Shown: positions 28,823-64,000 of the stretch, piece by piece
How the letters are laid out: the number at the start of each line of letters is the position of its first letter
How positions within the stretch are numbered: the first letter of the stretch is position 1
Source: Sinohyriopsis cumingii
Taxonomy: Eukaryota > Mollusca > Bivalvia > Unionida > Unionidae
NCBI GenBank assembly: GCA_028554795.2
Contig: CM068835.1
Coordinates: 31,808,311-31,872,310, forward strand
Direction of reading: 5' to 3'
DNA length: 64,000 bases
Position numbers and translations under genes: made by a program
Notes under the pieces: generated by a model
Told to the model about the DNA's origin: nothing
Seen by the model: the letters and a program-made list of their open reading frames with translations, nothing else
The model's database searches: none

Positions 28823-28869
28823 TATATAATATTCTATTTATCTAAATGGAAGTTTGTCCGAGAATCTAC

Positions 28870-29136: not shown

Positions 29137-29173
29137 ATTTATTTAAAGATATATTTGTTTAAAATATAATAAA
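29137..29173. promoter_or_regulatory. 37 bp divergent intergenic region
   Basis: Only 37 AT-rich bases separate the divergent zinc-ribbon and polymerase-helicase start codons. Both ATGs directly follow A/T runs ('taaataaat' and 'atataataaa'). A shared bidirectional promoter is inferred. Confidence 0.45.
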
Positions 29174-33310: not shown

Positions 33311-33316
33311 ATAATA

Positions 33317-33863: not shown

Positions 33864-33870
33864 TTATACC

Positions 33871-34533: not shown

Positions 34534-34568
34534 TACATCTGATTATTAAAAATTCATTTAAAGACGAC

Positions 34569-41420: not shown

Positions 41421-41579
41421 AGTGATTTGTAGGAATATGCGACTTACTAAACAGATATATTACCACACTTTGTGGACACAATTAGTGGACACAATTTCGT
41501 GTACATTATGGTGATTCCAAAAATATGAAAGGAGACTGAAAAGCTCTTTGTATCCTCAAAATGATAAATATAGTATGCA

Positions 41580-41892
41580 ACCATATCTTATATACTTTAT
41601 ATACATACGTGTATGCAACCACATCTTATATACTTCTTTTATACATACGTGTATGCAACCACATCTTATATACTTTTTCTTACACATGCTTGTATGAAAC
41701 CACATCTTGTATACTTCTTCTTATACATACGTGTATGTAACCACAAATTATATACTTTTTCTTACACATGCTTGTATGAAACCACATCTTGTATACTTCT
41801 TCTGATACATACTTGTATGCAACCACATCTTATATACTTCTTTTATAAATACGTGCATGCAACCACATCTTATGTACTTCTTTTATACATAT
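41580..41892. repeat. First block of the 39-42 bp minisatellite
   Basis: Units with 'catacgtgtatgcaaccaca' followed by 'tcttatatacttcttttata'. The same unit fills 43100-43735 and 44906-47232. Apparent open frames with repeated Tyr, His and Cys come from unit lengths near a multiple of three. Confidence 0.9.
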
Positions 41893-43099
41893 ATTAGGAC
41901 AGAACGTTTAAGCAAAAGTATTAAGAATGAAATTTTCTCTAAATTGTATAAAAAGCAATTTTTCATTAAATTATATTGAAAGTAATTTTCCATTAAATTA
42001 TATTGAAAGTAATTTTCCACTAAAATATATTGAGATAAATGTTATATATTTGTGTGATATAACTGTATGCTATTTTATAAACATCGTGCTTTACGAGCAG
42101 GTGCAGAAATCCATAAAATACATTTCGCTCGTAACTAAATGTCAGCAATTTAGATTTGGGGGGAAGCTGTTAAACAGAAAAATTATTATGTCAATAATGG
42201 ATGAGACGTAGATGGTTCACACGATGGCCATGGGAAAGTGCAAGAGTCTTGTTCTGGCTGAAATGAACGAAACCAAAAACTATAAATACAGAAGCGGGCT
42301 TACGAAGGGTTAGTTCTTTCCTCGAGTCAGAACAGCCCTGTCTTTTCCTTACAGGTAAGAATCGTCTGTGTTCGCAATCTTCTTTAAAGAATGGGCACTT
42401 TTTAATATTTGAGACTTTAACGGAAAAGTTCATATTTTTCCAACATTTTTGTGACTTCTTTATATTTTATATTATAATATAATGGAATGTTTAATTGTAT
42501 TTATGGTATGTATTATTGGAAAAGATGAATTCGCTATCAACTTCATGTTAAGATTTAATTTGGAAATAAATATCCTTAAGTAATATCGAATAATGTTTAG
42601 TAACCTATTCCAAATTAGTATTCTATTTTAAATTTAGTAAAATACATTTCTTTAAAATGATTGTTGTATTAATCGCAACTATTGAATTTTATACTCATTG
42701 GCTAACATGTAGTTAATCGAGATTTAACTATCTGTATTACATTCTAAAAGGCAGTAATTATACAAATGTATGAAGTTGGTAAGCTCGATGGGAAATTGTA
42801 ATTTTATATGTATTTCATGTATTCTTAATATAAAGGCTTTATAAATGTATCTTTAGAATTTAGCGTTATATATATCAATAAAAAGTTCGTTCCTCGTGTC
42901 AGAACAGTTTCGTCTTTTCCTTACAGCGATTCCGTACCACATTCCCCAAGATGTAGCCGTATCAACGCGATTATTGGTGACACGCTTCTTAGAGAGCCTG
43001 AACTCCTTCTTCTCTCTTTCTCTCCAGCCATGGGCAAAGACATTTCGTAACTTATGAGTATGATACAAAACATATGATAACAAGACTCTTGAACGTGTA
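41893..43099 (+). repeat. 1.2 kb segment, copy 1 of a 1.8 kb tandem duplication
   Basis: Near-identical to 43736-44905. It contains a TATA-like box ('ctataaatacagaagcggg' near 42280), a 'cttttccttacaggtaagaa' block that joins acceptor-like and donor-like sequence (near 42341-42360), and a later acceptor-like 'ttttccttacag' near 42915. Together with the flanking minisatellite it forms a unit of about 1.8 kb present twice. A transcribed non-coding unit or an unknown repeat is possible. No protein is recognised. Confidence 0.75.
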
Positions 43100-43735
43100 A
43101 TGCAACGACATATTGTATACTTCGTTTATACATACGTGAATGCAACCACATCTTATATATTTCTTTTATATATACGTGGATGCAACCACATCTTATATAC
43201 TTATTTTATACATACGTGGATGCAACCATATCTTATATACCTATTTTATACATATGTATATGCAATCACATCTTATACTTCTTCCTATACATACGTGAAT
43301 GCAACCACATCTTATATACCTATTTTATACATACGTGGATGCAACCACATCTTATATGCTTATTTCATACATACGTGGATGCAACCACATCTTATATACC
43401 TATTTTATACATACGTGTATGCAATCACATCTTATACTTCTTCCTATACATACGTGAATGCAACCACATCTTATACATTTCTTTTATATATACGTGGATG
43501 CAACCACATGTTATATACTTATTTTATACATACGTGGATGCAACCACATCTTAGATACTTTTTCTTACACATGCTTGTATGCAACCACATTTGATATACT
43601 TCTTCTGATACATACGTGTATTTAACCATATCTTATATACTTCTTCATATACATATGTGTATGCAACAACATCTTACATACTTCTTTTATACATACGTGC
43701 ATGTAACCACATCTTATATACATCTTTTATACATA
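43100..43735. repeat. Second block of the 39-42 bp minisatellite
   Basis: Same unit as 41580-41892, here with more 'gtggatgcaaccac' variants. It separates the two 1.2 kb copies. Confidence 0.9.
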
Positions 43736-44905
43736 TATTAGGAGAGAACGTTTAAGTAAAAGTATTAAGATTGAAATTTTCTCTAAATTATATTGAAAGT
43801 AATTTTCCACTAAAATATATTGAGATAAATGTTATATATTTGTGTGATATAACTGTATGCTATTTTTTTTATAAAGATCGTGCTTGACGAGCAGGTGCAG
43901 AAATCCATAAAATACATTTCGCTCGTTTCCAAATGTCAGCAATTTAGATTGAGTGGGTGGGGGGAGCTGCTAAACAGAAAAATTATTATGTCAATAATTG
44001 ATGAGTTACGCAGATGGTTCACACGATGGTAATGGGAAAGTGCAAGAGTCTTGTTCGGGCTGAACTGAACGAAACCAAAAACTGTATAAATACAGAAGCG
44101 GGCTTACGAAGGGTTAGTTCGTTCCTCGAGTCAGAACAGCCCTGTCTTTTCCTTACAGGTAAGAATCGTCTGTGTTCGCAATCTTCTTTAAAGAATGGGC
44201 ACTTTTTAATATTTGAGATAATAACGGAAAAGTTCATATTTTTCCAACATTTTTGTGACTTCTTTATATTTTATACTATAATATAATGGAATGTTTAATT
44301 GTATTTGTGGTATGTATTATTAGAAAAGATGAATGCGCTATCAACTTCATGTTAAGATTTAATTTGGAAATAAATATCCTTAAGTAATATCGAGTAATAT
44401 TTAGCAACCTATTGCAAATTAGTATTCTATTTTAAATTTAGTAAAACATATTTCTTTAAAATGATTGTTGCATTAATAGCAACTATTAAATTTTATACTC
44501 ATTGGCTAACATGAAGTTAATGGAGATTTAACTATCTGTATTACATTCTAAAAGGCAGAAATTATACAAATGTATGAAGTTGGTAAGCTCGATGGGAAAT
44601 TGTAATTTTATATGTATTTCGTGTATTCTTAATATAAAGGCTTTATAAATGTATCTTTAGAATTTAGCGTTATATATATTAATAAAAAGTTCGTTCCTCG
44701 AGTCAGAACAGCTCTGTCCTTTCCTTACAGCGATTCCGTACCTCATTCCCCAAGATGTAGCCGTATCAACGCGATTATTGGTGACACGCTTCTTAGAGAG
44801 CCTGAACTCCGTCTTCTCTATTTCTCTCCAACCATGGCCAAGACATTTCGTAACTTATGAGTATGATGCAAAACATATCATAACAAGACTCTTGAACGTG
44901 TAATT
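43736..44905 (+). repeat. 1.2 kb segment, copy 2 of the 1.8 kb tandem duplication
   Basis: Aligns with 41893-43099 with an offset of 1.80-1.85 kb. It keeps the TATA-like box (near 44085), the 'ccttacaggtaag' block and the downstream acceptor-like 'ttccttacag'. One internal stretch of copy 1 (repeated 'aaattatattgaaagtaatt') is shortened here. Confidence 0.8.
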
Positions 44906-47232
44906 CAAGGACATCTTATATACTTCGTTTATACATACGTGTATGCAACCATATTTTATATACTTAGTTTATACATACGTGAATGCAACGACATTTTATA
45001 TACTTCGTTTATACATACGTGAATGTAACGACATTTTATATACTTATTTTATACATACGTGTATGCAATCACATCTTATATAATTCTTCTTATACATACG
45101 TGTATGCAACCATATATTATATACCTCTTATACATACGTGTATGCAACCATATCTTAGATACCTTTTCTTATGCATACGTGTATGCAACCACATCTTGTA
45201 CACTTCTTATCCATACGTGTATGCAACGATATCTTATATACTTCTTTTATACATACGTGGATGCAACCACGTCTTATATACCTATTTTATACATACGTGC
45301 ATGCAGCGACATCTTACATACTTCTTTTATACATACGTGGATGCAATCACATCTTATATACTTATTTTATACATACGTGTTTGCAATCACATCTCATATG
45401 CATCTTCATATACATACGTGTATGAAACCACATCTTATCTACTTCTTGTACATACGTGTATGTAACCACTTCTTGTATACTTCTTGTTATGCACACGTGT
45501 ATGCAACCACATCGTATATACTTCATATACATACGTGTATGCAACCACAGCTTGTATAATTCTTCATATACATACGCGTATACAACCACATCTTGTACAC
45601 TTCTGCGTATCCATACGTGTATGCAACCCCATCTTATATACATCTTCTTATACATACGTGTATGCAACCACATCTTATATACTTATTCTTTTACATACGT
45701 GTAGGTAACCACATCTTATATACCTCTTCATATACATACGTGTATGAAACCACATCTTATATACTTATGCGTATGCATACGTGTATTCAGCCACATCTTA
45801 TATACTTCTTCATATACATACGTGTATGCAATCACATCTTGTATACTTCTTATGCACACGTGTATGCAACCACATCTTGTATACTTCTTATACATACGTG
45901 TATGCAACCACATATTGTATACTTCTTCATATGCATACGTGTATGCATCCACATTTTATATACTTCTTCTTATACATACGTGTATGCAACCACATCTTAT
46001 ATACTTCTTCATATACATACGTGTATGCAATCACATCTTGTATACTTCTTCTTATGCACACGTGTATGCAACCACATCTTGTATACTTCTTATACATACG
46101 TGTATGCAACCACATATTGTATACTTCTTCATATGCATACGTCTATACAGCCACATTTTAAATACTTCTTCTTATACATACGTGTATGCAACCACATCTT
46201 ATATACTTCTTCATATACATACGTGTATGCAACCACATCTTGTATACTTCTTATGCACACGTGTATGCAACCACATCCTATATACTTCTTCTTGTGCATA
46301 AGTGTATGCAACCACATCCTATATACTTCTTCTTATACATACGTGTATGCAATGACATCTTATATACTTCTTATACATACGTGTATGCAACCCCACATTT
46401 TATATACTTCTTCATATACATACGTGTATGCAACCACATCTTGTATACTTCTTATGCACACGTGTATGCAACCACATCCTATATACTTCTTCTTGTGCAT
46501 AAGTGTATGCAACCACATCCTATATACTTCTTCTTATACATACGTGTATGCAATGACATCTTATATACTTCTTATACATACGTGTATGCAACCCCACATT
46601 TTATATACTTCTTCATATACATACGTGTATGCAACTACATCTTGTATACTTCATAGGCATACGTGTATGCAACCACATTTTATATTCTTCTTCTTCTGCA
46701 TACGTATATGCAATCACATCTTGTATACTTCTTATGCATACGTGTATGCAACCACATCTTTTTACTTATTCTTATACATACGAGTATGCAACCACATATT
46801 ATATACTTCTTCATATGCATACGTGTATGCAGCCACATCTTGTATACTTCTGCTTATGTATACGTGTGTACAACCACATCTTATATACTTCTTCTTGTGC
46901 ATACGTGTATGCAACCACATCTTATATCGTTCTTCTTGTGCATACGTGTATGCAACCACACCTTATATACTTCTTCTTATACATACGTGTATGCAAACAC
47001 ATCTTATATACTTCTTCTTGTGCATACGTGTATGCAACCACACCTTATATACTTCTTCTTATACATACGTGTATGCAAAAACATCTTATATACTTCTTGT
47101 GCATACGTGTATGTAACCACATCTTATATACCTCTTCTTGTGTATACGTGTATGCAACCACATCTTATATACTTCTTCTTAGACATACGTGTATGCAAAA
47201 ACATCCTATATACTTCTTGTGCATACGTACGT
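44906..47232. repeat. 2.3 kb minisatellite of about 40 bp units
   Basis: More than 55 units of 'catacgtgtatgcaaccaca' plus 'tcttatatacttcttcttat' run uninterrupted. Variants such as 'ttcttatgcacacg' recur at multi-unit intervals, which indicates higher-order amplification. The long open frame across it (over 500 codons on the plus strand) has no start context or domain and is not a gene. Confidence 0.95.
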
Positions 47233-47529: not shown

Positions 47530-47779
47530 GGATAGTTATCGAAACACCTTTTCTTCACCGGAACCGTGGAAGCGTTGTGCATAGCCAACCCGATCTATGC
47601 ACTTACGATTGGCAATGTACAAGGATCTAGACTCCCGACCATGTCAGACTTCCGATTCCCGATCATCCAAGCAGTGCAAACTAGGGCTCAGGTAAAGGAA
47701 GATAACAAACATTTACGTAAATTAAAAGTACCGGAAGCCATTACTGAAATCTCCCGCGAAGAATTTCAGAATGAGCAAA
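47530..47779 (+). pseudogene. Gypsy retrotransposon, protease-end/linker fragment
   Basis: The open segment 'GTVEALCIANPIYALTIGNV' and 'FPIIQAVQTRAQVKEDNKHL' matches the stretch between the protease core and the integrase zinc domain in gypsy elements. It is cut at 47780 by element B, and the same retrotransposon resumes at 57309. Upstream gag and protease core sequences are missing. Confidence 0.75.
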
Positions 47780-47874
47780 AGCAGCAGAGGGGGTGAACAG
47801 ACCACTTGTCTGAAACCTAATTTGCTTAAAGCCCTATTTTTGCTTTATTGAGGTCCCTCACCCCCTCTGCTGCT
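47780..47874. repeat. Left terminal inverted repeat of element B
   Basis: 95 bp, starting AGCAGCAGAGGGGGTGAACA and ending with the inverted tip 'tcaccccctctgctgct'. It matches the reverse complement of 57214-57308. The motif after the tip ('gaacagacc') is shared with element A. Confidence 0.9.
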
Positions 47875-48097
47875 CTCAGAGGGATTTGATTGTTTGTACA
47901 TCATCATAACTGTGACGATGACTCATCAGCAATTAAAGGAGGTTTTTTAAATTTATACAATATATATAATGAATAATCCCCGGGGGCAGTAGTAGTATGT
48001 GTAAAGGGGGTTATGAGCACAACTTCATACTAGTTAAATATTAATTGAAGGACGTTCCATGATCTACATGATCGTGTGAAGCCCTCGATTAAGAGGG
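47875..48097. other. Leader of the left arm of element B
   Basis: About 220 bp without a gene. It includes a 'ccccgggggcagtagtagta' stretch and the downstream end of the zinc-ribbon gene. The right arm has a 4 bp deletion and a few substitutions in the equivalent stretch, evidence that the arms have begun to diverge. Confidence 0.6.
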
Positions 48098-48391
48098 TTA
48101 TGATTTTTTTTGCATCAAAAATTCATCAACGGTCGGAAAAGTTTTGTTTGTTCTGATACAATATTCAACGAGACTTCGGTATCTTGATCCGCCACAATCT
48201 GTACAGATTCTGTATTTTCCTCTGACAGCCTTACCACATACAGTACATGGCCGCGGCCCAGTTGAGCTGCTTCTTCGTGCTAATACCATGTGCCGCCCAC
48301 AAAATTCACCGTAACTTCGCCTGCCACACTCGAAAAATGATCCCTGTGGAAGCCATTTACATACGTGCACGGCTAATGCTGGATTTGGCAT
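48098..48391 (-). CDS. Zinc-ribbon protein, left arm copy
   Basis: 97 residues, open. Ligand candidates are C11, C22, C31 and H34, then C49-x2-C52 and C63-x2-C66. It shares 'CKW', 'CG.H', 'GP..C..C' and 'RGK.RIC.DCGG.RYRSL' style blocks with the 88-residue gene of element A (28870-29136). It diverges from the primase-helicase gene across 64 bp. The right arm copy differs at two residues (Tyr to His and Val to Phe near the C-terminus). Function unknown; DNA or RNA binding is likely from the zinc ribbon. Confidence 0.7.
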   Translation of the reverse strand: MPNPALAVHVCKWLPQGSFFECGRRSYGEFCGRHMVLARRSSSTGPRPCTVCGKAVRGKYRICTDCGGSRYRSLVEYCIRTNKTFPTVDEFLMQKKS

Positions 48392-48455
48392 TATATATAC
48401 TGTTTATTATATTTAAATATAAAACACAATTAGATATATAAATATATTAAATATA
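48392..48455. promoter_or_regulatory. 64 bp divergent intergenic region (left arm)
   Basis: Extremely AT-rich gap between the zinc-ribbon and primase-helicase start codons, with 'tatatata', 'atttaaatataa' and 'attaaatata' runs abutting each ATG. A bidirectional promoter is inferred. Its mirror is at 56637-56700. Confidence 0.45.
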
Positions 48456-51400
48456 ATGAATAATCTTATATGTATCGAGAACGATCCAGAATTTAATCTG
48501 GATAGTCCGTTCGAGACGAATACCGATGAAGAACTTCAAGACATTTCAGCGATTAATTATTTCGTTTTCAGAGATTACTACGCCGCGTTTAATATATCAT
48601 CGTTGGAGAAATATGTTTGTGTTTCATCCAAGAGCGATGCAATACGAGCATTACGCAGCTGCAATAATTATGATTATTACCTCAGAGGAATAATTATACA
48701 GCATTTCGATAAATTCTACTTATTTGCGTCTGATGATTTTGAACAACTTGCCGATAAATTCATCGGTAAATCATCTGTGACAGAAATAATACCAAAATTC
48801 CGATTGAGATACCCAATCTTCGACATTGATTCATTTTACAAGCACAGGATGATTCACGAGAATAAATTCGATAAGTTGGGTACATACACGCAGACAGATG
48901 AAAAAATTACTCACGATGAGATTATCGATTATTTCGCTCAATTATGCAATTGTACACACGATCGAGTTTATTTATTCGAAACAACCCGTGGCTATCATGT
49001 TCTTGTTAAATCAACACCTGTGTCATTTCAGACACAGATAGAACTAATTGAAAAAGCATCAAATGACAATCGAGATTGGTGTATTGATAAACAAGCTGGA
49101 TTACACAGTATAAAGCTGCATAATACTAAATCACACAAACCGGGTATAACAACAACGTGTAAAAGATTAATTTCACACGCTCATGAGACCATTCGACAAA
49201 GTGATTTATTAGTTTGTCCAACATCAATCCAACCCAAGGAGGTATTATACATCAAGGAAGAAAAACACCAACAATATTATTCTAATGAAATCACCGATCA
49301 AGATCTCGAAAAAATATCTACGGAATTGACAGGGGAACCGGATCAACTAATGTACGTAATTAGTACATGTGAAAACAGACTGACTATCCAGCGACGACCA
49401 GGAACTTTTGTAATATCTGTCAACGGCGACACGGATACAATTATATTAATGATCACGCCGAGGACAAATGTGATAATTATCTCGTATACGTGCACAGCGA
49501 TTGTTTTGTTGTGGTTTGTCCGCGAGGAACCAGTAAAATAATAATTCAGCACGATTACGATAAACAAATTGATGATTATCTAAGCGAAGCATCAATCAAT
49601 GGTGTCATTGGCGCTGTCGTAGAACCATTACCAATGTGTCAAAGAAATCCTGATTACATTAAATACCTAATGATGGCGAAATACCGTAGTGATAATTATC
49701 CTGGAGTGACCATTAGCAGCGTCGCAGATCATAATTACACTGCTGCTCCCGTGCACGAATCCGGTCCTGGTTGTAAAATCATCGACGGGGATTACATTGA
49801 TGGATCATCTTGTGGAATGGGAAAATCTTTCGCGGCAATAGCGTCAATGAAGCCACATCAATCAGCGCTGTACTTATCATACCGAAAAACATTTACCGAA
49901 AAAATTAAATCAGATTGTAATTTTGAATCCTACACAGATATTCCTGGAGATATTGTTATGCGCGGCAACATAAGAGTAATTGTACAATGGGAATCATTAC
50001 ATCGTGTTCGAGGGATTTCAGATGTTGTTATCGTTGATGAGTGGCATGGTCTTCGCAGACAGTGTTTCTCATCGACCGCACGTAGCCGCGCACAATGGGA
50101 TAAATTCGCTGACATTATTACAACGGCGCCACGAGTAATAGTTGCTGATGCTGATGCTGACAATGACGATCTGATATTATTTCGGGGTCAATTGGCGCGA
50201 TCCGATATGAAATTCATCATCAATGATTACAGGGTAGATCATGATAAAACGTTTATCGTTGAACAATCACACCGGGATAATCTTGTCAGTTTGTTAAATT
50301 GTGTTAAAAACAACAGCGTTGCAGTGTTTACACATAACAAATCTAGCGGCGCTTATTCAGTCGAGAGTTTAGCTCGACAATTGCAGCATCAAGGATATCG
50401 CGTAAAATATTATCATGCTGATACTGATTCCACGCACAATAACAAAGATTTCTCTGATACCGACAACGCGTATAACAACACCGACGTGGTGATTTTTAAT
50501 CATACGTTAGAAGCAGGAGTCAGCATCATTACACAGCGATTTCGACATTTGTGTTTTCGGAAGAATTAGGATCTGTTGAAGCAACTAAACAAGCACTACA
50601 TAGATTTATATGTGTCGCTGAGATTCATTATTCAGCGACATCACGACGCAGCAAAAATCTTCCTTTGACTCGCAGTGATATCATCGCGACAATCATTGAC
50701 AACGAAAGAAATCTCAATGAAGCTGAAAAATCATTTCGGACTCCAAATCTCGGAGAAATTAACATCGCGTTCTGATTCGCATTTATCAGTAATATCATCG
50801 ATGAGAATAATTCCAGATCGTATTTTACTCCTCGATTAATCGCGGCCATGCGCAATACCGTCTATGAAATCATACAGACAATCCCGGACGAGTATGAAAT
50901 ATGGTTGTCGCGATTATGCATAAAAAAACCATCTGCGACAGAAATTAATAATAATCCCGCCGTCGATGAATTTCTTAAAACAACAATTGGCGCGCGGATA
51001 AAAAAATACTCGTATGAGAAATCAAACAACAGCACGTTAAAATACCATTCATGGAATCCTGATGAGCAATTGGAACCATATCAGAAGAAACTAAAATATC
51101 TCGACTATATATTTCAGACCGACATTGGAAAACTCGACGCGGATAAAATCGGGCATCTTTACAAGAAGTCCACGGCGATGATACGAGCCCAACATGTCAT
51201 CGTTGACAAGTTCAATGATGGCCATTCCACAACAACAGTATTCAGATCTGATAAAATATCCCCACGGGAAAAACTAGCGACGGTCCGAGATGTCCTTGAT
51301 GTGTTAAAATTACTCGATATTGTCCCGGACAACTTATCAACGATGACGATAACGATAATCCGAGATGAGCTCATGGCAAACATCGAAGCAATGTTACAGA

Positions 51401-51777
51401 ATCCGCATCACATGGAAAAGTACACCGGGTTTATAAAACATTTCTCGGCGATATTTTCCGAGGCGCGATTACAAGCAAAATCACTGAAAACAAAAAATAT
51501 CATTGAAAAAATTAAATTGATTTATAAAGGATTCGGCGCGGAAGTAAAACCAAATGACAATAATCACGCTAACAGGAACAATTATACACTGTATTATCCA
51601 CAATGGCCTGAATCGGATTTTATCGTCGATGTATCATGGCAAAATACTATCATAGATGATCCAGGATATTTAGCCGGTAATGATATTTCGATCATAGATG
51701 AACATGCCAAATGGTTGAAATTTCACATTTGGAGTATTAATAAATGGTTTAGTCGATACGATATCCCGGATCAGTAA
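48456..51777 (+). pseudogene. UL52-like primase/UL9-like origin-binding helicase fusion, left arm
   Basis: One ancestral gene of about 1,106 codons, now broken by two frameshifts (about 49440 and 50555) and a TGA at 50773. The N-terminal third is an archaeo-eukaryotic primase: 'RYPIFDIDSFY' holds the catalytic Asp pair (D123, D125), 'WCIDKQAGLHSIKLHN' the later catalytic strand, and a Cys/His stretch near 49450-49530 resembles the UL52 C-terminal zinc site. The middle is an SF2 helicase: 'GSSCGMGKS' (Walker A), 'VVIVDEWHGL' (DE box) and 'VVIFNHTLEAGVSI' (motif V-like), as in herpesvirus origin-binding proteins. The last 310 residues (50848-51777) are unrecognised. Such a fusion would prime and unwind at an origin. 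The first ATG follows 'attaaatata'. Confidence 0.75.
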
Positions 51778-52800
51778 TCAAACCACTTGAAATTGTTTGG
51801 CGAAACTATCATATTTCCTATATAATATATGATTATGATAGTTTCGCCATCATTCAGATAAATATCATTGTCAATCTGACGCTGGCGAAACTATCATATT
51901 TCCTATATAATATATGATTATGATAGTTTCGCCATCATTCAAATAAATATCATTGTCAATCTGACGCTGGCGAAACTATCATATTTCCTATATAATATAT
52001 GATTATGATAGTTTCGCCATCATTCAGACAAATATCTTTGTCAATCTGACGCTGACGAAACTATCTTATTTCCTATATAATATATGATTATGATAGTTTC
52101 GCCATCATTCAAATAAATATCATTGTCAATCTGACGCTGGCGAAACTATCATATTTCTTATATAATATATGATTATGATAGTTTCGCCATCATTCAGATA
52201 CATATCATTGTCATTCTGACTGAAATGATGGCGAAACTATCATATTTCCTATATAATATATGATTATGATAGTTTCGCCATTATTCAAATAAATATCATT
52301 GTCAATCTGACGCTGGCAAAACTATCATATTTCCTATATAATATATGATTATGATAGTTTCGCCATCATTCAGATAAATATCATTGTCAATCTGACGCTG
52401 GCGAAACTATCATATTTCTTATATAATATATGATTATGATAGTTTCGCCATCATTCAGATACATATCATTGTCATTCTGACTGAAATGATGGCGAAACTA
52501 TCATATTTCCTATATAATATATGATTATGATAGTTTCGCCATTATTCAAATAAATATCATTGTCAATCTGACGCTGGAAAAACTATCATATTTCCTATAC
52601 AATATATGATTATGATAGTTTCGCCATCATTCAGATAAATATCATTGTCAATCTGACGCTGGCGAAACTATCATATTTCTTATATAATATATGATTATGA
52701 TAGTTTCGCCATCATTCAGATAAATATCATTGTCAATCTGACTGAAATGATGGCGAAACTATCATATTTCCTATATAATATATGATTATGGTAGTTTCTT
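51778..52800. repeat. About 12 hairpin-forming 85 bp repeats (left of centre)
   Basis: Units start at 51799, 51884, 51969 and so on. Each contains GCGAAACTATCAT and its exact reverse complement ATGATAGTTTCGC, separated by about 22 AT-rich bases (including 'tatataatatat'). A 35 bp linker follows with 'cattgtcaatctgacgct'. Some linkers carry a 'gactgaaatgatgg' variant. Substitutions in one stem arm are rarely matched in the other. The array begins 22 bp after the stop of the primase-helicase gene. A replication origin or iteron role is inferred from the neighbouring origin-binding-type helicase. Confidence 0.9.
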
Positions 52801-53054
52801 CATCATTCAGAAAAATATCATTGCTTGTTGAAAGTGGCAAAAATATTACATAGTAATATGGCACTTTCCACAGTATCATCGCATGGTTATTATTTAATAT
52901 TCATCGATAAATTCCACACTGGTGAATATTATTATGATATTTTACTCATCCCCGATTTGTCTGTCTGAATAATTAAATCAGTGATTATATATAATGTCTG
53001 AATACATCAGCATGATGATCTTAGAAAAACCCGTTGCAGGATGTAAAATTACCA
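52801..53054. other. Unpaired centre of the element B palindrome
   Basis: About 250 bp found only once, between the two hairpin arrays. It includes a small palindrome-like 'aatattacatagtaatat' and an AT-rich stretch, and no gene. It is the spacer of the giant inverted repeat. Confidence 0.75.
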
Positions 53055-53297
53055 TGATATTTATCTGAATGATGGCGAAACTATCATAATCATATATTAT
53101 ATAGGAAATATGATAGTTTCGCCAGCGTCAGATTGACAATGATATTTATTTGAATGATGGCGAAACTATCATAATCATATATTATATAGGAAATATGATA
53201 GTTTCGCCAGCGTCAGATTGACAATGATATTTATCTGAATGATGGCGAAACTATCATAATCATATGTTATATAGGAAATATGATAATTTTGCCAAAC
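53055..53297. repeat. Three hairpin-forming 85 bp repeats (right of centre)
   Basis: Three units in the opposite orientation to the left array, next to the mirrored helicase gene. The unit next to the gene has 'gataattttgcc', where the others have an intact stem, so one hairpin arm is mutated. Confidence 0.9.
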
Positions 53298-53314
53298 AAT
53301 TTCAAGTGGTTTGA

Positions 53315-56300
53315 TTACTGATCCGGGATATCGTATCGACTAAACCATTTATTAATACTCCAAATGTGAAATTTCAACCATTTGGCGTGTTCATCTATGA
53401 TCGGAATATCATTACCGGCTAAATATCCTGGATCATCTATGATAGTATTTTGCCATGATACATCGACGATAAAATCCGATTCAGGCCATTGTGGATAATA
53501 CAGTGTATAATTGTTCCTGTTAGCGTGATTATTGTCATTTGGTTTTACTTCCGCGCCGAATCCTTTATAAATCAATTTAATTTTTTCAATGATATTTTTT
53601 GTTTTCAGTGATTTTGCTTGTAATCGCGCCTCGGAAAATATCGCCGAGAAATGTTTTATAAACCCGGTGTACTTTTCCATGTGATGCGGATTCTGTAACA
53701 TTGCTTCGATGTTTGCCATGAGCTCATCTCGGATTATCGTTATCGTCATCGTTGATAAGTTGTCCGGGACAATATCGAGTAATTTTAACACATCAAGGAC
53801 ATCTCGGACCGTCGCTAGTTTTTCCCGTGGGGATATTTTATCAGATCTGAATACTGTTGTTGTGGAATGGCCATCATTGAACTTGTCAACGATGACATGT
53901 TGGGCTCGTATCATCGCCGTGGACTTCTTGTAAAGATGCCCGATTTTATCCGCGTCGAGTTTTCCAATGTCGGTCTGAAATATATAGTCGAGATATTTTA
54001 GTTTCTTCTGATATGGTTCCAATTGCTCATCAGGATTCCATGAATGGTATTTTAACGTGCTGTTGTTTGATTTCTCATACGAGTATTTTTTTATCCGCGC
54101 GCCAATTGTTGTTTTAAGAAATTCATCGACGGCGGGATTATTATTAATTTCTGTCGCAGATGGTTTTTTTATGCATAATCGCGACAACCATATTTCATAC
54201 TCGTCCGGGATTGTCTGTATGATTTCATAGACGGTATTGCGCATGGCCGCGATTAATCGAGGAGTAAAATACGATCTGGAATTATTCTCATCGATGATAT
54301 TACTGATAAATGCGAATCAGAACGCGATGTTAATTTCTCCGAGATTTGGAGTCCGAAATGATTTTTCAGCTTCATTGAGATTTCTTTCGTTGTCAATGAT
54401 TGTCGCGATGATATCACTGCGAGTCAAAGGAAGATTTTTGCTGCGTCGTGATGTCGCTGAATAATGAATCTCAGCGACACATATAAATCTATGTAGTGCT
54501 TGTTTAGTTGCTTCAACAGATCCTAATTCTTCCGAAAACACAAATGTCGAAATCGCTGTGTAATGATGCTGACTCCTGCTTCTAACGTATGATTAAAAAT
54601 CACCACGTCGGTGTTGTTATACGCGTTGTCGGTATCAGAGAAATCTTTGTTATTGTGCGTGGAATCAGTATCAGCATGATAATATTTTACGCGATATCCT
54701 TGATGCTGCAATTGTCGAGCTAAACTCTCGACTGAATAAGCGCCGCTAGATTTGTTATGTGTAAACACTGCAACGCTGTTGTTTTTAACACAATTTAACA
54801 AACTGACAAGATTATCCCGGTGTGATTGTTCAACGATAAACGTTTTATCATGATCTACCCTGTAATCATTGATGATGAATTTCATATCGGATCGCGCCAA
54901 TTGACCCCGAAATAATATCAGATCGTCATTGTCAGCATCAGCATCAGCAACTATTACTCGTGGCGCCGTTGTAATAATGTCAGCGAATTTATCCCATTGT
55001 GCGCGGCTACGTGCGGTCGATGAGAAACACTGTCTGCGAAGACCATGCCACTCATCAACGATAACAACATCTGAAATCCCTCGAACACGATGTAATGATT
55101 CCCATTGTACAATTACTCTTATGTTGCCGCGCATAACAATATCTCCAGGAATATCTGTGTAGGATTCAAAATTACAATCTGATTTAATTTTTTCGGTAAA
55201 TGTTTTTCGGTATGATAAGTACAGCGCTGATTGATGTGGCTTCATTGACGCTATTGCCGCGAAAGATTTTCCCATTCCACAAGATGATCCATCAATGTAA
55301 TCCCCGTCGATGATTTTACAACCAGGACCGGATTCGTGCACGGGAGCAGCAGTGTAATTATGATCTGCGACGCTGCTAATGGTCACTCCAGGATAATTAT
55401 CACTACGGTATTTCGCCATCATTAGGTATTTAATGTAATCAGGATTTCTTTGACACATTGGTAATGGTTCTACGACAGCGCCAATGACACCATTGATTGA
55501 TGCTTCGCTTAGATAATCATCAATTTGTTTATCGTAATCGTGCTGAATTATTATTTTACTGGTTCCTCGCGGACAAACCACAACAAAACAATCGCTGTGC
55601 ACGTATACGAGATAATTATCACATTTGTCCTCGGCGTGATCATTAATATAATTGTATCCGTGTCGCCGTTGACAGATATTACAAAAGTTCCTGGTCGTCG
55701 CTGGATAGTCAGTCTGTTTTCACATGTACTAATTACGTACATTAGTTGATCCGGTTCCCCTGTCAATTCCGTAGATATTTTTTCGAGATCTTGATCGGTG
55801 ATTTCATTAGAATAATATTGTTGGTGTTTTTCTTCCTTGATGTATAATACCTCCTTGGGTTGGATTGATGTTGGACAAACTAATAAATCACTTTGTCGAA
55901 TGGTCTCATGAGCGTGTGAAATTAATCTTTTACACGTTGTTGTTATACCCGGTTTGTGTGATTTAGTATTATGCAGCTTTATACTGTGTAATCCAGCTTG
56001 TTTATCAATACACCAATCTCGATTGTCATTTGATGCTTTTTCAATTAGTTCTATCTGTGTCTGAAATGACACAGGTGTTGATTTAACAAGAACATGATAG
56101 CCACGGGTTGTTTCGAATAAATAAACTCGATCGTGTGTACAATTGCATAATTGAGCGAAATAATCGATAATCTCATCGTGAGTAATTTTTTCATCTGTCT
56201 GCGTGTATGTACCCAACTTATCGAATTTATTCTCGTGAATCATCCTGTGCTTGTAAAATGAATCAATGTCGAAGATTGGGTATCTCAATCGGAATTTTGG

Positions 56301-56636
56301 TATTATTTCTGTCACAGATGATTTACCGATGAATTTATCGGCAAGTTGTTCAAAATCATCAGACGCAAATAAGTAGAATTTATCGAAATGCTGTATAATT
56401 ATTCCTCTGAGGTAATAATCATAATTATTGCAGCTGCGTAATGCTCGTATTGCATCGCTCTTGGATGAAACACAAACATATTTCTCCAACGATGATATAT
56501 TAAACGCGGCGTAGTAATCTCTGAAAACGAAATAATTAATCGCTGAAATGTCTTGAAGTTCTTCATCGGTATTCGTCTCGAACGGACTATCCAGATTAAA
56601 TTCTGGATCGTTCTCGATACATATAAGATTATTCAT
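53315..56636 (-). pseudogene. UL52-like primase/UL9-like helicase fusion, right arm
   Basis: Mirror copy of 48456-51777. All open segments are the same length and in the same order, with the same two frameshifts and the same stop. Between the two copies I see only one residue difference in the translated segments (Ser to Pro near the C-terminus, 'NDISII' against 'NDIPII'). Domains are as described for the left copy: primase at 56636-55600, SF2 origin-binding-type helicase at about 55600-54500, and an unknown C-terminal region at 54244-53315. Sharing the same lesions means the duplication or homogenisation happened after the gene was broken, unless the lesions are recoding sites. Confidence 0.75.
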
Positions 56637-56700
56637 TATATTTAATATATTTATATATCTAATTGTGTTTTATATTTAAATATAATAAACAGTATATATA
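56637..56700. promoter_or_regulatory. 64 bp divergent intergenic region (right arm)
   Basis: Exact mirror of 48392-48455, between the right-arm primase-helicase and zinc-ribbon start codons. Confidence 0.45.
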
Positions 56701-56994
56701 ATGCCAAATCCAGCATTAGCCGTGCACGTATGTAAATGGCTTCCACAGGGATCATTTTTCGAGTGTGGCAGGCGAAGTTACGGTGAATTTTGTGGGCGGC
56801 ACATGGTATTAGCACGAAGAAGCAGCTCAACTGGGCCGCGGCCATGTACTGTATGTGGTAAGGCTGTCAGAGGAAAATACAGAATCTGTACAGATTGTGG
56901 CGGATCAAGATACCGAAGTCTCGTTGAACATTGTATCAGAACAAACAAAACGTTTCCGACGTTTGATGAATTTTTGATGCAAAAAAAATCATAA
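56701..56994 (+). CDS. Zinc-ribbon protein, right arm copy
   Basis: 97 residues, open, with the same Cys/His pattern as the left copy. Two amino-acid differences lie in the last 30 residues ('SLVEHC' and 'FPTFDEF', where the left copy has 'SLVEYC' and 'FPTVDEF'). Confidence 0.7.
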   Translation: MPNPALAVHVCKWLPQGSFFECGRRSYGEFCGRHMVLARRSSSTGPRPCTVCGKAVRGKYRICTDCGGSRYRSLVEHCIRTNKTFPTFDEFLMQKKS

Positions 56995-57213
56995 TCCTCT
57001 TTATCGAGGGCTTCACACGATCATGTAGATCATGGAACGTCCTTCAATTAATATTTAACTAGTATGAAGTTGTGCTCATAACCCCCTTTACACATACTAC
57101 TACTGCCCCCGGGGATTATTCATTATATATATTGTATAAACTTAAAAAACCTCCTTTAATTGCTGATGAGTCATCGTCACAGTTATGATACTGTACAAAC
57201 AAATCCCTCTGAG

Positions 57214-57308
57214 AGCAGCAGAGGGGGTGAGGGACCTCAATAAAGCAAAAATAGGGCTTTAAGCAAATTAGGTTTCAGACAAGTGGTCTGTTCACCTCCT
57301 CTGCTGCT
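57214..57308. repeat. Right terminal inverted repeat of element B
   Basis: 95 bp reverse complement of 47780-47874 with a near-identical tip ('ttcacctcctctgctgct' at the outer edge has one G-to-A-type difference from the left). It joins gypsy integrase-domain sequence at 57309. Confidence 0.9.
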
Positions 57309-58626
57309 GAAAAACGTGACGCGTCTCTACGTGCAACCGCGGAGAGGGCATTATCGGGTACCGTGAGGAAGTGTAAGAACGGGGGTTCTTCTAAATTCCT
57401 TACTCGAAAAGGTTTAATGTATAGGGAATACTGTACACTTGCGAGGAAGTTCTTGCAACTAGTGGTTGCCCAGAAATTCAGGTCGCATGTACTCATGGTC
57501 GCGCGCGAGTCGAGTAGGCATGAAGAAAACAACAGATAGGGTATTAAGAGAATTCTATTGGCCTGGTGTCAATAGCGACGTAGCGCGGTTCTGTCGCTCG
57601 TGCGATGTTTGCCAGAAGACTGTCTCTAAGGGCATGTAATTAGAGTACCGTTAGGTCAGATGCCCTTGATACTCCGTTTAAAAGAGAGGCCGTTGACATT
57701 GTAGGACCTATATTTCCACATACAGATTGGAAAAACCGATACATCTTGACGCTGATAGATTACGCTAATAGATACCCCGAAACCATAGCTTTGCCATCCA
57801 TTGAAACCGAACGTGTAGCCAAAGCGCTCGTAGACCTGTTCAGCAGGATCGGAGTGCCCGAAGAGGTTCTTACGGATTGTGGAGCGTAATTCACCTCAGA
57901 TCTCATGGCATAAATTAGTAGGTTGTTGTCCCTTAAACAGTTGTGCACGACACCCTACCACCATATGTGCAATGGGTTCGTCGAGAAATTCAACGGGACG
58001 TTGAAGCAAATGTTTTGACGGATGTGGGCGGAGAGACCTAAGGATTGGGATAGGTATCTGAACGCAATTCTATTCGTGTGTCGCGAGGTTCCTCATGAAA
58101 GTTTAGGATTCTCCCCGTTTGAACTATTGTACGGTTGGACAGTTCGTGGTCCTATGCGCATTCTACGCGAACTGTGGTCAGACGAAGTCGCGGACGAAGA
58201 AGTTAAGACCACTTACCAATACGTGGTAGATTTGCGCGAAAGATTAGAGAGTATATGTCGAATGGTGGAAGACGAACTCGCGAAATTTAGCGTAGGTACG
58301 CGAAGTACTACAACCGAGGAACGCGGAGTAAAAAGTTCGATGTAAGTAATCAAGTGTTGGTACTTCTCCCAACGAATAAAAACAACCATCTAGTCCAATC
58401 GAAAGGGCCATATAAAGTCAGACAGGCGAAATGCGAAATGGACTATATCATAGACGTGGAGGGTAAGTCCAAGATATTTCACGCCAATATGCTTAAACTC
58501 TACGTAGAAAGACCTAGACAAACAATTGATAAAGAGGTCGTGAATGTAATATGCGTAGCGGTGATAGAGGATAGTTCGTGTGACGAATCGGAATTCGTCT
58601 CCAGTACAGAAATGCCCCTTGAATAA
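57309..58626 (+). pseudogene. Gypsy integrase (upstream of RT), degraded
   Basis: After the element B junction the frame reads a linker with 'GGSSKFLTRKGLMY' and 'LQLVVAQKFRSHV', then the zinc domain ('FYWPGVNSDVARFCRSCDVC' in a shifted frame, 57550-57620). The core follows with 'AVDIVGPIF', 'YILTLIDYANRYPETIAL', 'EEVLTDCGA' followed by a stop, and 'GFVEKFNGTLKQ'. Next come 'SLGFSPFELLYGWTVRGPM' and a GPY/F-type end 'GPYKV...MDYIIDVEGKSK'. Stops and shifts show it is dead. The domain lies 5' of the reverse transcriptase, which is unusual for Ty3/gypsy and recalls Gmr1-type elements. Confidence 0.85.
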
Positions 58627-58639
58627 CACATTGACGTAG

Positions 58640-59410
58640 GGAAAGAAGGTATTGCCCGGATTTATCAATGAGTCAGCGTACACAGATCTTGGGGTTTTTG
58701 TCCCAATACCCTGGCGTTTTTACTCACAAACTGGGCCGTACTGGATTGATCACGAGATCAAGTTGAAAACATCTGAGCCGATCAGGATTAAAGGATATCC
58801 AATACCCTTTAATGCGCGGAAGACAATCAACGAAGAAATGGGGAAAATGGTAGACCAGGAAGTGATCGAACCTTCCAGCTCCCCGCACTCGTCGCCCGTT
58901 TTGTTAGTGAGAAACAAAGACGGGACAAACCGTTTTTGCATTGACTTTCGGCACTTGAACAAAATCACAGTGTTCGACGCAGAACCAATGCCAGACATGG
59001 AAAGTTTATTTTCAAAGTTGGCAGGTCATAAATACATTTCCAAATTAGACCTTACCAAGGGATATTGGCAGATACCAATCGCTGATAATGTCTACGAGTT
59101 AACGGTATTCGCAACTCCCAAATGTCTTTGTCAATTTAAAGTTATGCCTTTCGGTTTAGTCAACGCCGGTGCGTCATGCGTTCGTCTCATGCGCAAACTG
59201 TTCAACGGTATGGAAAACGTCGACAGTTTCGTAGATGATATCTTTGTTTATACACATACATGGGATGAACATGTTAAGGATCTGTTTAATAGACTTCACA
59301 CTGCAAATCTTACAGCTAAGCCCACCAAATGTAGTATAGGGTATTTTCGCATAGAATGTTTGGGACATTTCGTTAGGTGGACTAGGTCATTTGAAACCTG
59401 ACCCAGATAA
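58640..59410 (+). pseudogene. Gypsy reverse transcriptase
   Basis: An open segment of about 249 residues holds the RT fingers and palm: 'EVIEPSSSPHSSPVLLVRNK', 'RFCIDFRHLNKIT', 'KLDLTKGYWQIP', 'VMPFGLVNAGAS' and the active site 'FVDD' (residues 193-196, the YxDD box with Phe). It follows the integrase GPY/F end by only tens of bases. The N-terminal 'LPGFINESAYTDLGVF' region is a linker, so no gag or protease intervenes. A shift near 59395 separates it from the connection and RNase H part. Confidence 0.9.
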
Positions 59411-60022
59411 AATATGAGCAATCAGTGATGCATTTAGACCAGAAACTAAAAAACAAGTAAGAACTTTCCTAGGTTTGATTGGATTTTACATGAAATTTGT
59501 CCCCAATTTTGCGGCTATTGCCAGCCCATGAACAGACTTGACTAGGAATGGGCAACCGAATAAAATTCCCTGGGGTGTATGCCAGAAATAAGCATTTAAC
59601 GCTTTAAAACATAAACTGGTAAGTGCGCCAATCTTAAAGTTGCCAGAATTGAACAACACTTTTGTGCTGAGGACTGATGCGTCCGATACGGGTCTTGGGG
59701 CTATTTGCTACAGGAGCAAGAGGGAACGAAATTGCCCATTGCTTATGCAAGTAGGAAATTGCTCCCTAGGGAGCAAAAGTACTCCGTGATTGAGAAGGAG
59801 TGCCAAGTCTTAGTATGGGGGATAGGAATATTCAGTACTTACCTTTTCGGGAGGGAGTTTACCTTACAAACGGGCCATCAGCCGCTCCTGTAATTGAACA
59901 AAGCGAAGGTCGCCAATGCAAGATTGATGCGTTGGGCGTTGTATTTGCAATCATATAGTTTCCGGATCGAGGCGATTCGAGGATTGGAAAATGTGGGTGC
60001 TGATTTTTTAAGTAGGGTGTGA
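59402..60022 (+). pseudogene. Gypsy RT connection and RNase H domain
   Basis: In several frames: 'FLGLIGFYMKFVPNFAAIAS' (connection), 'LRTDASDTGLGA' (RNase H first Asp), 'PIAYASRKLLPREQKYSVIE' (Glu and Asp region), 'TGHQPLL' where TDHxPL is usual, and the end 'GADFLSRV' before a TGA at 60020. It is the last coding domain before the polypurine tract, as expected when the integrase has moved upstream. Confidence 0.85.
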
Positions 60023-60116
60023 TTGTCAGATCATTTTCGTTCAGTGTTCAAGTTGGAAGTTTTAACAATTGTTTATGTTCACATTCCGTGATTTTTCTCA
60101 AAGTGGTAACACTTTA

Positions 60117-60320: not shown

Positions 60321-60612
60321 AGCAGCAGGGAAGTTCTACAGACCAGACCGTTCCAATAAAAAAAAACCTTCTATGAGAACATTTTCTGCAGAAACCTCAG
60401 AAAACAGAAATAAACCTTTCCAGAAAAACTAATTTGCATAAATTCGACCCCTAATGCAATTTTTGTGTGCGAATTATGTCATTCTGGACAATGAAAAAAA
60501 TATGATTTTTCGGGGGGGGGTGGGAAAATGATTGGGTGTCGATGAAGTTTGCAAGAAAAAAGCTGCAAATGCTAATTTTACTTCACAATAAAACAATATC
60601 ATTGAAAATAAG

Positions 60613-61986
60613 ATGAGTCGAAAAACTAGCACAGTTGGAGAGCCTCATTCTGCAAGATTAACACGAGAAGAATTAGCGGCAGTAAGGAAACTCATTCCGA
60701 CAAAAAAATTATTTAAGAAAAAAGTTCGTGAGTATGATGATTCACAATATCATATTGGTGAGGTATCGTCAAAATGGTTGAGTCCAGTCACTGGAGTTAT
60801 CGAACAAGTCGCATATGGCAAACAACAAAAGGATAAGGAACTTAAAGATCTTGGGCTTATTCCCATGACGAGAGATATTGAGCAACATACCCAAGTGGTT
60901 CCGGGTCAACTTGAGCAAATTCGACAAGCACAAGAGCAAGCACAAGCGCAAGCACAAGCACAAGCACAAGCACAAGCGCAAGCACAAGCACAAGCGCAAG
61001 CACAAGCGCAAGCACAAGCGCAAGCGCAAGCACAAGCGCAAGCACAAGCACAAGCACAATTGCCGCAAAAACAACCTCAAAGTGGAAAAATAAAAATTTT
61101 GGGCTCCGATAAATTTACCGATGAGACTATCGCAAGAATAAAATCAATGAATCAGAAAGAGGTTGTAATATTTATTGTGGAAAATTTTGAGAAAAACAGA
61201 CGAAAAAAACTGATGAAACCGGGTCAATCCGAGAAAGTAACATTCGTAAATTGGACAAAGTGGGTATATTATGTATACAAGGATGTCAAAATAGTTAAAT
61301 ATAAAGATCCAGAATATAATAAATTTACTCTTTTGGTAAATAATTATGAAAAGATATACAAATCTAAACCATTATCGCTATCTTTGTCTTCATCTCACGA
61401 AGTTGAAACTGAACCAGAAGAATTTGAAACCGAATTTCCAAAAATTAAACAAAAAAGACTTATGCCATCAAGATATTTTACCAGTGATACTCTTGAAAAA
61501 ATTAGAGACCAAGATGAATTAATTCGAATCGCAAGGTTTGGTTTTACAGAACCAGAAAAATATTTGAAAACAAAATATCATGATTTAAATATGACAAAGG
61601 GACAATGGATACCTACTGTGTATTTTGCTTCTGTGGAAAAACCTGTTGATATCGAAGATCCTGATTACAAAATTTTTACAAGAGAAATAAGACAATTAGA
61701 TCAGGAAGAAATATCAAAATCGCCCGAAGAACTTGAAGATGAACCTGAAGATGAACCTGAAGATGAACCTGAAGATGAACCCAAAACAGGAAGTGGATAT
61801 ACCATCTGTCCTGACAGTGTTGTCAACGACGTATCTCGCCTCGAAGTATTAATCGGAGGAAAACGAGCTGGAAATAACTCTCGTGAAATAATCAACGAAG
61901 CCTCAGATATTTGTCAGCGATTATTTCGTGGTGGTATCATTGATTCTCACATTTACAAGGAACTCGTCGATGAGCTTATCGATTAA
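60613..61986 (+). CDS. Virion-module ORF1 of element C, with Gln-Ala repeat
   Basis: 457 residues, open. A basic N-terminal region ends in 'IPTKKLFKKKVREYD'. It is followed by a perfect (Gln-Ala)n stretch of about 20 dipeptides (60930-61060). Two related globular repeats follow: one with 'KFTDETIARIKSMNQ' and 'YKDPEYNKFTLLVNNY', the other with 'YFTSDTLEKIRDQDE' and 'IEDPDYKIFTREIRQL'. An acidic 'EDEPEDEPEDEP' repeat (61735-61782) precedes the conserved C-terminal domain 'YTICPDSVVNDVSRLEV...KRAGNN'. The C-terminal domain is strongly conserved with element A ORF1. Function unknown; a virion role is suggested by its neighbours. Confidence 0.75.
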   Translation: MSRKTSTVGEPHSARLTREELAAVRKLIPTKKLFKKKVREYDDSQYHIGEVSSKWLSPVTGVIEQVAYGKQQKDKELKDLGLIPMTRDIEQHTQVVPGQLEQIRQAQEQAQAQAQAQAQAQAQAQAQAQAQAQAQAQAQAQAQAQAQAQLPQKQPQSGKIKILGSDKFTDETIARIKSMNQKEVVIFIVENFEKNRRKKLMKPGQSEKVTFVNWTKWVYYVYKDVKIVKYKDPEYNKFTLLVNNYEKIYKSKPLSLSLSSSHEVETEPEEFETEFPKIKQKRLMPSRYFTSDTLEKIRDQDELIRIARFGFTEPEKYLKTKYHDLNMTKGQWIPTVYFASVEKPVDIEDPDYKIFTREIRQLDQEEISKSPEELEDEPEDEPEDEPEDEPKTGSGYTICPDSVVNDVSRLEVLIGGKRAGNNSREIINEASDICQRLFRGGIIDSHIYKELVDELID

Positions 61987-62006
61987 AATAACACAATTGA
62001 AATAAC

Positions 62007-62477
62007 ATGATTGTTCACAAACATCAGCGCAGACCAAGACAGGTCCGCGTAGTTAACTCTCGATTGCCCGTGTACAAATATATCCACGGTAATGGATTCG
62101 GTGATATCATTGGAAGTCTTGTCACGCGAGTAATACCTAAAATTGGACCCGTGATTAAGCAATTTGGGTTGAAAGCAATAGGAAAGATCGGCGAGACTGC
62201 CATTTCTGGTATCGGTAATTTAGCTAGTAAAGGCTTCAACGCTATCAAAGATAAAATATTAAGTTTAGTACGTAAAAAACAACCCGTCAAATTACCCATT
62301 ACCAGCGAAATGCCACCTGAAGTCAGTAAGGCCATAAATGATGCGGCAAATAAAAAAATAAATGATCTAGCACAGGAAGCTGCTATAACAAATCTAGCGC
62401 AGGAAGTTGCTAATACAAATCCAGCAAATACAAGTTTTGTTTCAGGTGATGGTCTTCGTTTTAGACGATATTATTAA
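62007..62477 (+). CDS. Virion-module ORF2 of element C
   Basis: 156 residues, open and homologous to 20250-20693. It shares the start (Met-Ile, then a His/Arg-rich stretch), the 'RVVNSRLPVYKY' block, a Gly-rich turn, an amphipathic central region ('IGPVIKQFGLKAIGKIG') and a 'GLRFRRYY' end. It is likely a small basic or membrane-active virion protein. It lies 20 bp after ORF1 and 6 bp before the capsid gene. Confidence 0.75.
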   Translation: MIVHKHQRRPRQVRVVNSRLPVYKYIHGNGFGDIIGSLVTRVIPKIGPVIKQFGLKAIGKIGETAISGIGNLASKGFNAIKDKILSLVRKKQPVKLPITSEMPPEVSKAINDAANKKINDLAQEAAITNLAQEVANTNPANTSFVSGDGLRFRRYY

Positions 62478-62483
62478 TAATAA

Positions 62484-63872: not shown

Positions 63873-63905
63873 CAAATTCCAAATTTAGATTAATCGGTTA
63901 TTAAT

Positions 63906-64000
63906 ATGCCATACGATCACGTCAGCGTAACTCTGACTCCCGGTCAGATAAAAAAGCTTCAATCGGCAACAACAGCGCGACGAGGTTTAAGTTTAACCTT
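63906..64000 (+). CDS. pX/pVI-like protein of element C, cut by window end
   Basis: The first 31 codons read 'MPYDHVSVTLTPGQIKKLQS', nearly identical to the start of 22113-22598. The remainder lies outside the window. Confidence 0.75.
   Translation, partial: MPYDHVSVTLTPGQIKKLQSATTARRGLSLT

Follow-up and report, generated by a model that had tools for sequence, protein, structure and literature searches.

The 64,000-nt stretch of the Sinohyriopsis cumingii genome analysed here (assembly GCA_028554795.2, contig CM068835.1, positions 31,808,311 to 31,872,310; hereafter, the window) carries two Maverick/Polinton elements, which we call A and C, and between them a third element, B, which is the subject of this report. 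Element B is a mirrored unit whose two nearly identical inverted arms each carry a zinc-ribbon-like gene with a relative in Maverick A and a replication gene with a helicase part; the arms meet at a central repeat array and finish in Maverick-like ends. The explanation that we prefer, tentatively and with somewhat less than even confidence, is that B is what remains of a transpoviron-like satellite replicon derived from Mavericks, which would have become a head-to-head dimer by fold-back and been integrated in trans.

The palindrome, its ends and its surroundings

A preliminary description of this DNA had proposed a giant palindrome of 9.5 kb with near-identical inverted arms, and alignment of the arms with gaps (47780-52036 against 57308-53056) bears this out, with 16 mismatches and one 4-bp gap over ~4.25 kb. 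The end coordinates given there, 47780 and 57308, proved exact, but the arms, put at ~5.2 kb, measure 4.25 kb, and the centre is not symmetric. Without gaps, the inverted pairs are 47890-52041/53051-57202, the longest at 4,152 bp, and 47780-47893/57195-57308. The element, its parts and its flanks are:

47780..57308, no strand: whole mirrored element B, 9,529 bp; the mirror symmetry of the arms extends to both ends and not beyond
47780..52036, + strand: left arm, 4,257 bp in the gapped arm alignment
53056..57308, - strand: right arm, 4,253 bp, an inverted copy of the left arm
47780..47874, + strand: left terminal repeat, 95 bp, with Maverick-like outer 24 nt
57214..57308, - strand: right terminal repeat, the mirror copy, with one mismatch in its terminal stem
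47536..47779, + strand: left flank, with a frame open to the junction; presumed gypsy from its motifs, no Pfam match
57309..57536, + strand: right flank, with an open frame read as the presumed gypsy continuation, no Pfam match

The preliminary description had also raised the concern that the palindrome was an assembly fold-back. A fold-back would mirror the surroundings as well, yet the flanking kilobases of B show no relationship to one another (a local score of 12, where 10 shuffles gave 11-17), which makes such an origin unlikely for B as a whole. The centre is asymmetric too, with repeat arrays of different length on its left and right sides and a 230-bp single-copy spacer. On the strength of the unlike flanks, the unequal arrays and the spacer we rejected a fold-back read artefact for the whole of B, and the concern is largely answered; it stands for the identical middle of the arms, which may be a product of the assembler.

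The differences between the arms are unevenly distributed: 10 of the mismatches lie in the outer 384 bp and six at 51688-52029, with none in the 3,524 bp between, a run that none of 200,000 random placements reproduced. This distribution suggests that the palindrome existed before the middle of its arms became uniform. Either gene conversion from arm to arm has since made the arms uniform over most of their length, or they look uniform because the assembler was unable to separate them.

Maverick-like terminal repeats had been attributed to B as well, and they are borne out by the outer 24 nt, in which B is identical to Maverick A at 20-21 of 24 positions and to the left end of Maverick C at 18-19 of 24. 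Beyond nt 24, the similarity of the A and B ends does not exceed that of shuffles. A pattern built from the Maverick-like ends has five matches in the window, namely both ends of A, both ends of B and the visible end of C. The same pattern occurs in four viral contigs, which we took as chance; the open reading frames (ORFs) of two of the four (L002 and L003) look phage-like by eye.

The left repeat of B starts and finishes with inverted copies of one 17-nt sequence, giving a 17-bp terminal stem, and as a single strand its 95 nt are predicted to form a stem with two inner arms (energy z -7.9). The terminal repeats of A (18480-18728 and 34569-34817) likewise carry one 16-nt sequence at the start and its inverted copy at the finish, which would allow them to fold back on themselves. 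Over their full 249 nt the predicted folds have z -5.0 and -6.6, whereas a 149-nt piece that excludes the inner copy is predicted to fold no better than shuffles (z 0.36). The end of C, unlike those of A and B, has no inner inverted copy of itself.

On the left, B is bordered by an 81-codon open frame with the final residues ...VPEAITEISREEFQNEQ, and on the right by an open frame that, with 4 or 1 nt removed at the joint, reads ...EQKRDASLRATAERAL... or EQKKRDASL.... From their motifs, the flanks look like two halves of one gypsy frame, and we take the joint to be the linker that precedes a gypsy integrase. In support of this, an integrase-like match lies further to the right, at 57713-58090 (27% to the Maverick A integrase, E 3.5e-4, tblastn), followed by a reverse transcriptase domain (RVT_1, Pfam, E 9e-23) at 58640-59401. 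Integrase-like sequence upstream of reverse transcriptase, as seen in this gypsy-like element (57309-60100), is the order known from Gmr1-like elements. The ORF at 58019 has no Pfam family at E up to 10, and a Ty3 polyprotein is fifth among its six matches (E 0.49). The mirrored unit of B ends exactly at both boundaries of the insertion. Near B, a 40-41-bp unit (ATGCAACCACATCTTATATACTTCT...) is repeated in three long tandem arrays, at 41573-41891, 43093-43735 and 44896-47218.

Genes and the central repeat array

The two arms carry the same genes in opposite orientation, with the arrays and the spacer at the centre:

48098..48391, - strand: zinc-ribbon-like gene of B, 97 aa, uninterrupted (from ORF, Pfam and tblastn to A)
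56701..56994, + strand: mirror zinc-ribbon-like gene, differing by two amino acids
48456..51777, + strand: replication gene of B, comprising ORF1 (48456-49541), ORF2 (49490-50569) and ORF3 (50848-51777); frame interrupted twice
53315..56636, - strand: mirror replication gene, with the same two interruptions
51798..52823, + strand: left array, ~12 copies of an 85-bp repeat, 3' of ORF3; proposed origin
52824..53053, no strand: spacer, 230 bp, single-copy; proposed turn-round loop of a fold-back
53054..53294, - strand: right array, 2.8 copies of the same 85-bp repeat, inverted

The zinc-ribbon gene that the preliminary description had placed in each arm has a relative in Maverick A, although its Pfam match, to DZR_2, is weak (E 9e-4, 19.5 bits) and below the cut-off of 27. 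That relative, the ORF at 28870-29136 (- strand, 88 aa), is 40% identical over 83 aa with 58.5 bits, against 25.4 bits for the best of 200 shuffled queries. Another zinc-ribbon-like ORF of A, at 33666-33863, had been considered as the relative and was rejected, having no meaningful similarity. In both A and B the zinc-ribbon gene is divergent from the replication gene that adjoins it; in A this neighbour, from 29174 onwards, has no Pfam match, and from its appearance we take it to be polymerase-like. Both the relative and its setting in A indicate that B has a Maverick gene and its context besides the ends, with the replication gene exchanged.

For the replication gene, a primase-helicase had been proposed, and the helicase is the half that holds. 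ORF2 matches Herpes_ori_bp (PF02399, Pfam) with E 3e-12 and 45.9 bits, above the cut-off of 20, and also the phage replication family phrog_4913 (E 3e-11). Against the NCBIfam profile of the plasmid initiator CyRepA1 it reaches E 1e-20 and 74.3 bits, below the cut-off of 200. In the PDB it weakly matches the solved structure of a replication origin-binding protein (E 6e-4), presumably that of herpes simplex virus (HSV). The primase half did not find such support: a search confined to proteins of similar length gave no relative of ORF1, and ORF1 has no match in the PDB. FDID, GYH and CIDK at ORF1 residues 122, 179 and 209 resemble motifs of AEP-type primases. The mussel alignment (A2) has no match in the PDB. 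The frame is interrupted twice, at identical places in both arms, and this copy of B is therefore probably inactive.

Relatives of the helicase are four proteins of Sinanodonta woodiana and one short metagenome protein; one of the four is a six-member cluster that was matched only by the mussel query. The Sinanodonta woodiana gene models from these searches are ACJMK2_012314, ACJMK2_037268, ACJMK2_042799 and ACJMK2_004613. ORF2 had four matches, and the query P0004 had four including itself among the 8,000 candidates scored. ORF3 aligns to the C-terminal part of the mussel homologues. Within the window, tblastn found no relatives of ORF1, ORF2 or ORF3 in A or in the 3.7 kb of C that the window shows, and the remaining matches of these ORFs lie inside B on the opposite strand (E 0.003). 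Among phage records, ORF1 had no match at E up to 1, ORF2 none at E 0.001 and P0005 none; ORF2 had no plasmid record at E 0.01, and at E up to 10 it gave seven Klebsiella phage records with E 6-8. The mussel alignment had no match in prokaryote genomes. In IMG/VR, searched with short peptide patterns and then tblastn, nothing was found for ORF1, ORF2, the mussel alignment, the C capsid, the A integrase or the zinc ribbon.

Each 85-bp unit of the central arrays consists of inverted 15-nt boxes flanking a 22-nt core of 86% A+T. There are 15 such units of box, AT-rich core and box, all in the centre of B; with up to three mismatches allowed, the rest of the window contains none of the boxes. The one unit tested is predicted to fold as a hairpin (z -5.95). 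Units 5 and 8 of the left array are identical in sequence, as are units 6 and 9, and the array thus appears to have expanded three units at a time. The spacer has only 12-13-nt matches elsewhere in the window (E 0.17 or worse).

The origin oriS of HSV, which has inverted boxes around an AT-rich spacer, is bound by an origin-binding helicase; on unwinding it adopts a hairpin (PMC12543377). In B, the gene of an origin-binding-type helicase adjoins an array of oriS-like layout, so that the most economical reading, by analogy, is that the array would be a replication origin.

Element B and known replicons

B resembles the origin-binding protein of herpesviruses (UL9/OBP) and cyanobacterial CyRepA1, a plasmid initiator that combines a primase domain with a helicase domain (PMC9978351), in its helicase domain by profile and in the oriS-like layout of its array. 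It differs from both in the low level of similarity, in the sequence of the boxes and in an N-terminal part that would be primase-like by the motifs that we presume in ORF1.

Both Mavericks of the window are more conventional in content. Maverick A (18480-34817) is integrated, with 281-bp terminal repeats (95%) and the 6-bp duplication CATGTA/CATGTA, and carries a DJR capsid gene, an rve integrase ORF (31.2 bits, below the cut-off of 32.6) and overlapping polymerase-like ORFs with no Pfam match. It also holds an HNH_3 homing-endonuclease-like ORF (28301-28837, - strand, E 9e-18) and a large AT-rich tandem-repeat block (26174-27843). Of Maverick C, the left part (60321-64000) is visible before the element runs off the window, and its uninterrupted DJR capsid ORF (62484-63872) is 65% identical to the A capsid over 358 aa.

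The Maverick/Polinton gene set includes a protein-primed polymerase, an rve integrase and a packaging ATPase (PMC4028283). No Pfam family of such core genes was found in the four left-arm ORFs of B, nor did tblastn find a match in B to the A integrase, the A and C capsids or the A ORFs at 29147, 30093, 31576 and 34069; the ORFs tested include polymerase-like, helicase-like and ATPase-like ones. B is similar to the Mavericks of the window in its outer 24 nt and, as regards A, in the divergent zinc-ribbon gene beside the replication gene and in the self-folding repeat. It is unlike them in being palindromic, in lacking a core-gene match, in its imperfect target duplication and in its different replication gene. 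As B lacks the core genes tested, the usual gene set would not class it as a Maverick, but it is related to one.

Transpovirons, linear satellites that are ~7 kb long and accompany giant viruses, are bounded by terminal inverted repeats (TIRs); they encode a helicase and a zinc-finger protein, and a tandem repeat lies in their centre, 3' of the helicase (PMC7031253, PMC11788076). Other traits of transpovirons are a small transmembrane protein and dependence on a giant virus. B is likewise a small TIR-bounded unit, seen integrated only; it combines a helicase with what may be a zinc-finger-type protein, the zinc ribbon being weak by Pfam; and its central tandem repeat (51798-52823) lies directly 3' of the helicase gene at ORF3. 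It differs in its mirrored double copy, in a helicase of Herpes_ori_bp/CyRepA1 type and in its location in an animal-type genome among Mavericks, with which it has ends and the zinc-ribbon gene in common. The helicase of transpovirons is reportedly of superfamily 1 and fused to an inactivated polymerase; that of B is instead of the Herpes_ori_bp type. Herpes OBP is a superfamily 2 helicase (PMC12543377). B would, by this analogy, work like a transpoviron, but it is not shown to be one.

Two further systems offer precedents for parts of the structure. The inverted terminal repeats of adeno-associated virus (AAV) form double hairpins that prime replication (PMC11575299), and parvovirus intermediates are head-to-head or tail-to-tail concatemers (PMC3087758). 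The predicted terminal stem of B with its two inner arms resembles these repeats, whereas the joint of the B dimer lies at the inner array and not at a terminal hairpin; Pfam found no parvovirus genes in the four ORFs of B that were scanned. Origin-dependent inverted-repeat amplification (ODIRA) differs from B in having been described for yeast chromosomes and not for a mobile element. Among the literature matches listed for palindromic Polintons and non-autonomous bivalve Mavericks, and for transpovirons and adintovirus or Maverick origin-binding proteins, no B-like element appears in the accessible text, and the accessible parts of PMC10294476, PMC2836005 and PMC6431247 contain nothing on an element of this type.

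Origin of the mirrored element

The preferred explanation, that of a satellite replicon, could be pictured as follows. A small replicon that came from the Maverick/Polinton viruses of a mollusc, and lived at their expense, would have kept the Maverick zinc-ribbon gene and ends while bringing its own initiator, with a primase-like part and a helicase of Herpes_ori_bp/CyRepA1 type, and the cognate origin, the 85-bp array 3' of the gene. During replication, a growing or displaced strand could fold back at the self-complementary array and copy its own arm out to the terminal repeat. The product would be a head-to-head dimer in which the origins lie centrally and both outer ends are ready for an integrase, and a Maverick integrase could insert it in trans, as one unit, into a gypsy retrotransposon. 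After insertion, the arms would have been made uniform by arm-to-arm gene conversion, or may appear so through the assembler. We infer that the fold-back preceded the insertion, since the mirrored unit fills the insertion exactly. The preliminary description had suggested a fold-back product turned integrable unit, or a satellite relying on the integrase of its relatives; both suggestions fit the Maverick-type ends, the absence of any trace of the integrase, capsid, ATPase-like and polymerase-like ORFs of A that were tested, the self-complementary array and the unit that ends exactly at the junctions within what looks like one gypsy frame, and to that extent they are partly supported.

Several observations weigh against this explanation. 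ORF1 matches no Pfam family at E up to 10, which leaves a primase without profile support, and with the initiator interrupted in both arms this copy cannot show a life cycle. The relatives of the helicase are known here as mussel and metagenome proteins alone, without gene surroundings, and B itself is known here from one copy, in the 64-kb window. The single-copy spacer and the unequal arrays mean that a fold-back would require a loop or later changes. At the insertion site the evidence is mixed as well. Mavericks duplicate 6 bp of their target, and at B the two candidates, AGCAAA and GAAAAA, are not a clean duplication, so that none can be claimed. As both flanks are open, some in-frame join always exists, and the frame alone is no proof; the flank peptides have no Pfam family at E up to 10 and the right one has no match in the PDB. 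Lastly, the zinc-ribbon match in A led us to lower our confidence in the satellite replicon slightly and to raise it slightly for the first of the rivals.

The strongest rival, which we regard as a real possibility though a doubtful one, is that B is a derivative of a full-size Maverick, of the defective-interfering type, in which a head-to-head duplication of the end that carries the zinc-ribbon and helicase genes went with loss of all the rest. Palindromic defective adenovirus genomes (SYREC) are a precedent; the name SYREC is absent among the literature matches listed. The Maverick-like ends agree with this rival, as does the zinc-ribbon gene of A in the same divergent position by a replication gene, and the terminal repeats of B and C have in common an 18-nt stretch with two mismatches, a likeness that 9 of 2,000 shuffles equalled, uncorrected for its being one of three comparisons. 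The helicase gene, however, has no relative in A or in the visible part of C, and a full-size parent of B was not found in the viral and prokaryote collections, which were searched by pattern first.

It is unlikely, in our judgement, that the mirroring came after the insertion, with a one-arm element with two terminal repeats inserted first and repair or gene conversion later copying the left arm over the right half, from the terminal repeat inwards. The differences cluster in the outer 384 bp and close to the centre while the stretch between has none, which is what recent copying of the middle would leave. The inner differences, however, suggest that both arms reached the centre before the middle became uniform, and the insertion has its boundaries exactly where the mirrored ends lie. 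Less probable again is an assembly artefact in which the second arm, or at least the identical middle, was made by the assembler. None of the 16 differences is farther than ~0.4 kb from the outer ends or the array region, as short-range repeat resolution would give, and the frame interruptions are identical in both arms; against this stand the unmirrored flanks, the unequal array lengths with their single-copy spacer and the differences between the two outer ends. Two separate elements inserted head to head would account for two full gene sets in opposite orientation, but the centre of B has no match to the end pattern, and with the inner terminal repeats missing (unless lost) we rejected this account as scarcely credible.

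A further reading, itself improbable, takes the satellite replicon one step on: the mirrored form may be the normal genome of an undescribed class of animal satellites, a palindromic linear replicon that would be to mollusc Mavericks what transpovirons are to their viruses. Such a genome would have hairpin-forming ends and two initiators facing a central origin array, and would be multiplied with, and inserted by, Mavericks.

Satellites of transpoviron-like build have been described for giant viruses of protists. If an animal genome holds a Maverick-ended element equipped with an initiator and an origin, this would point to satellites of animal Mavericks as well. Its mirrored form would make the formation of head-to-head dimers by such linear elements testable from genome sequence and, likewise, the capacity of integrases to accept foreign cargo between two matching ends.

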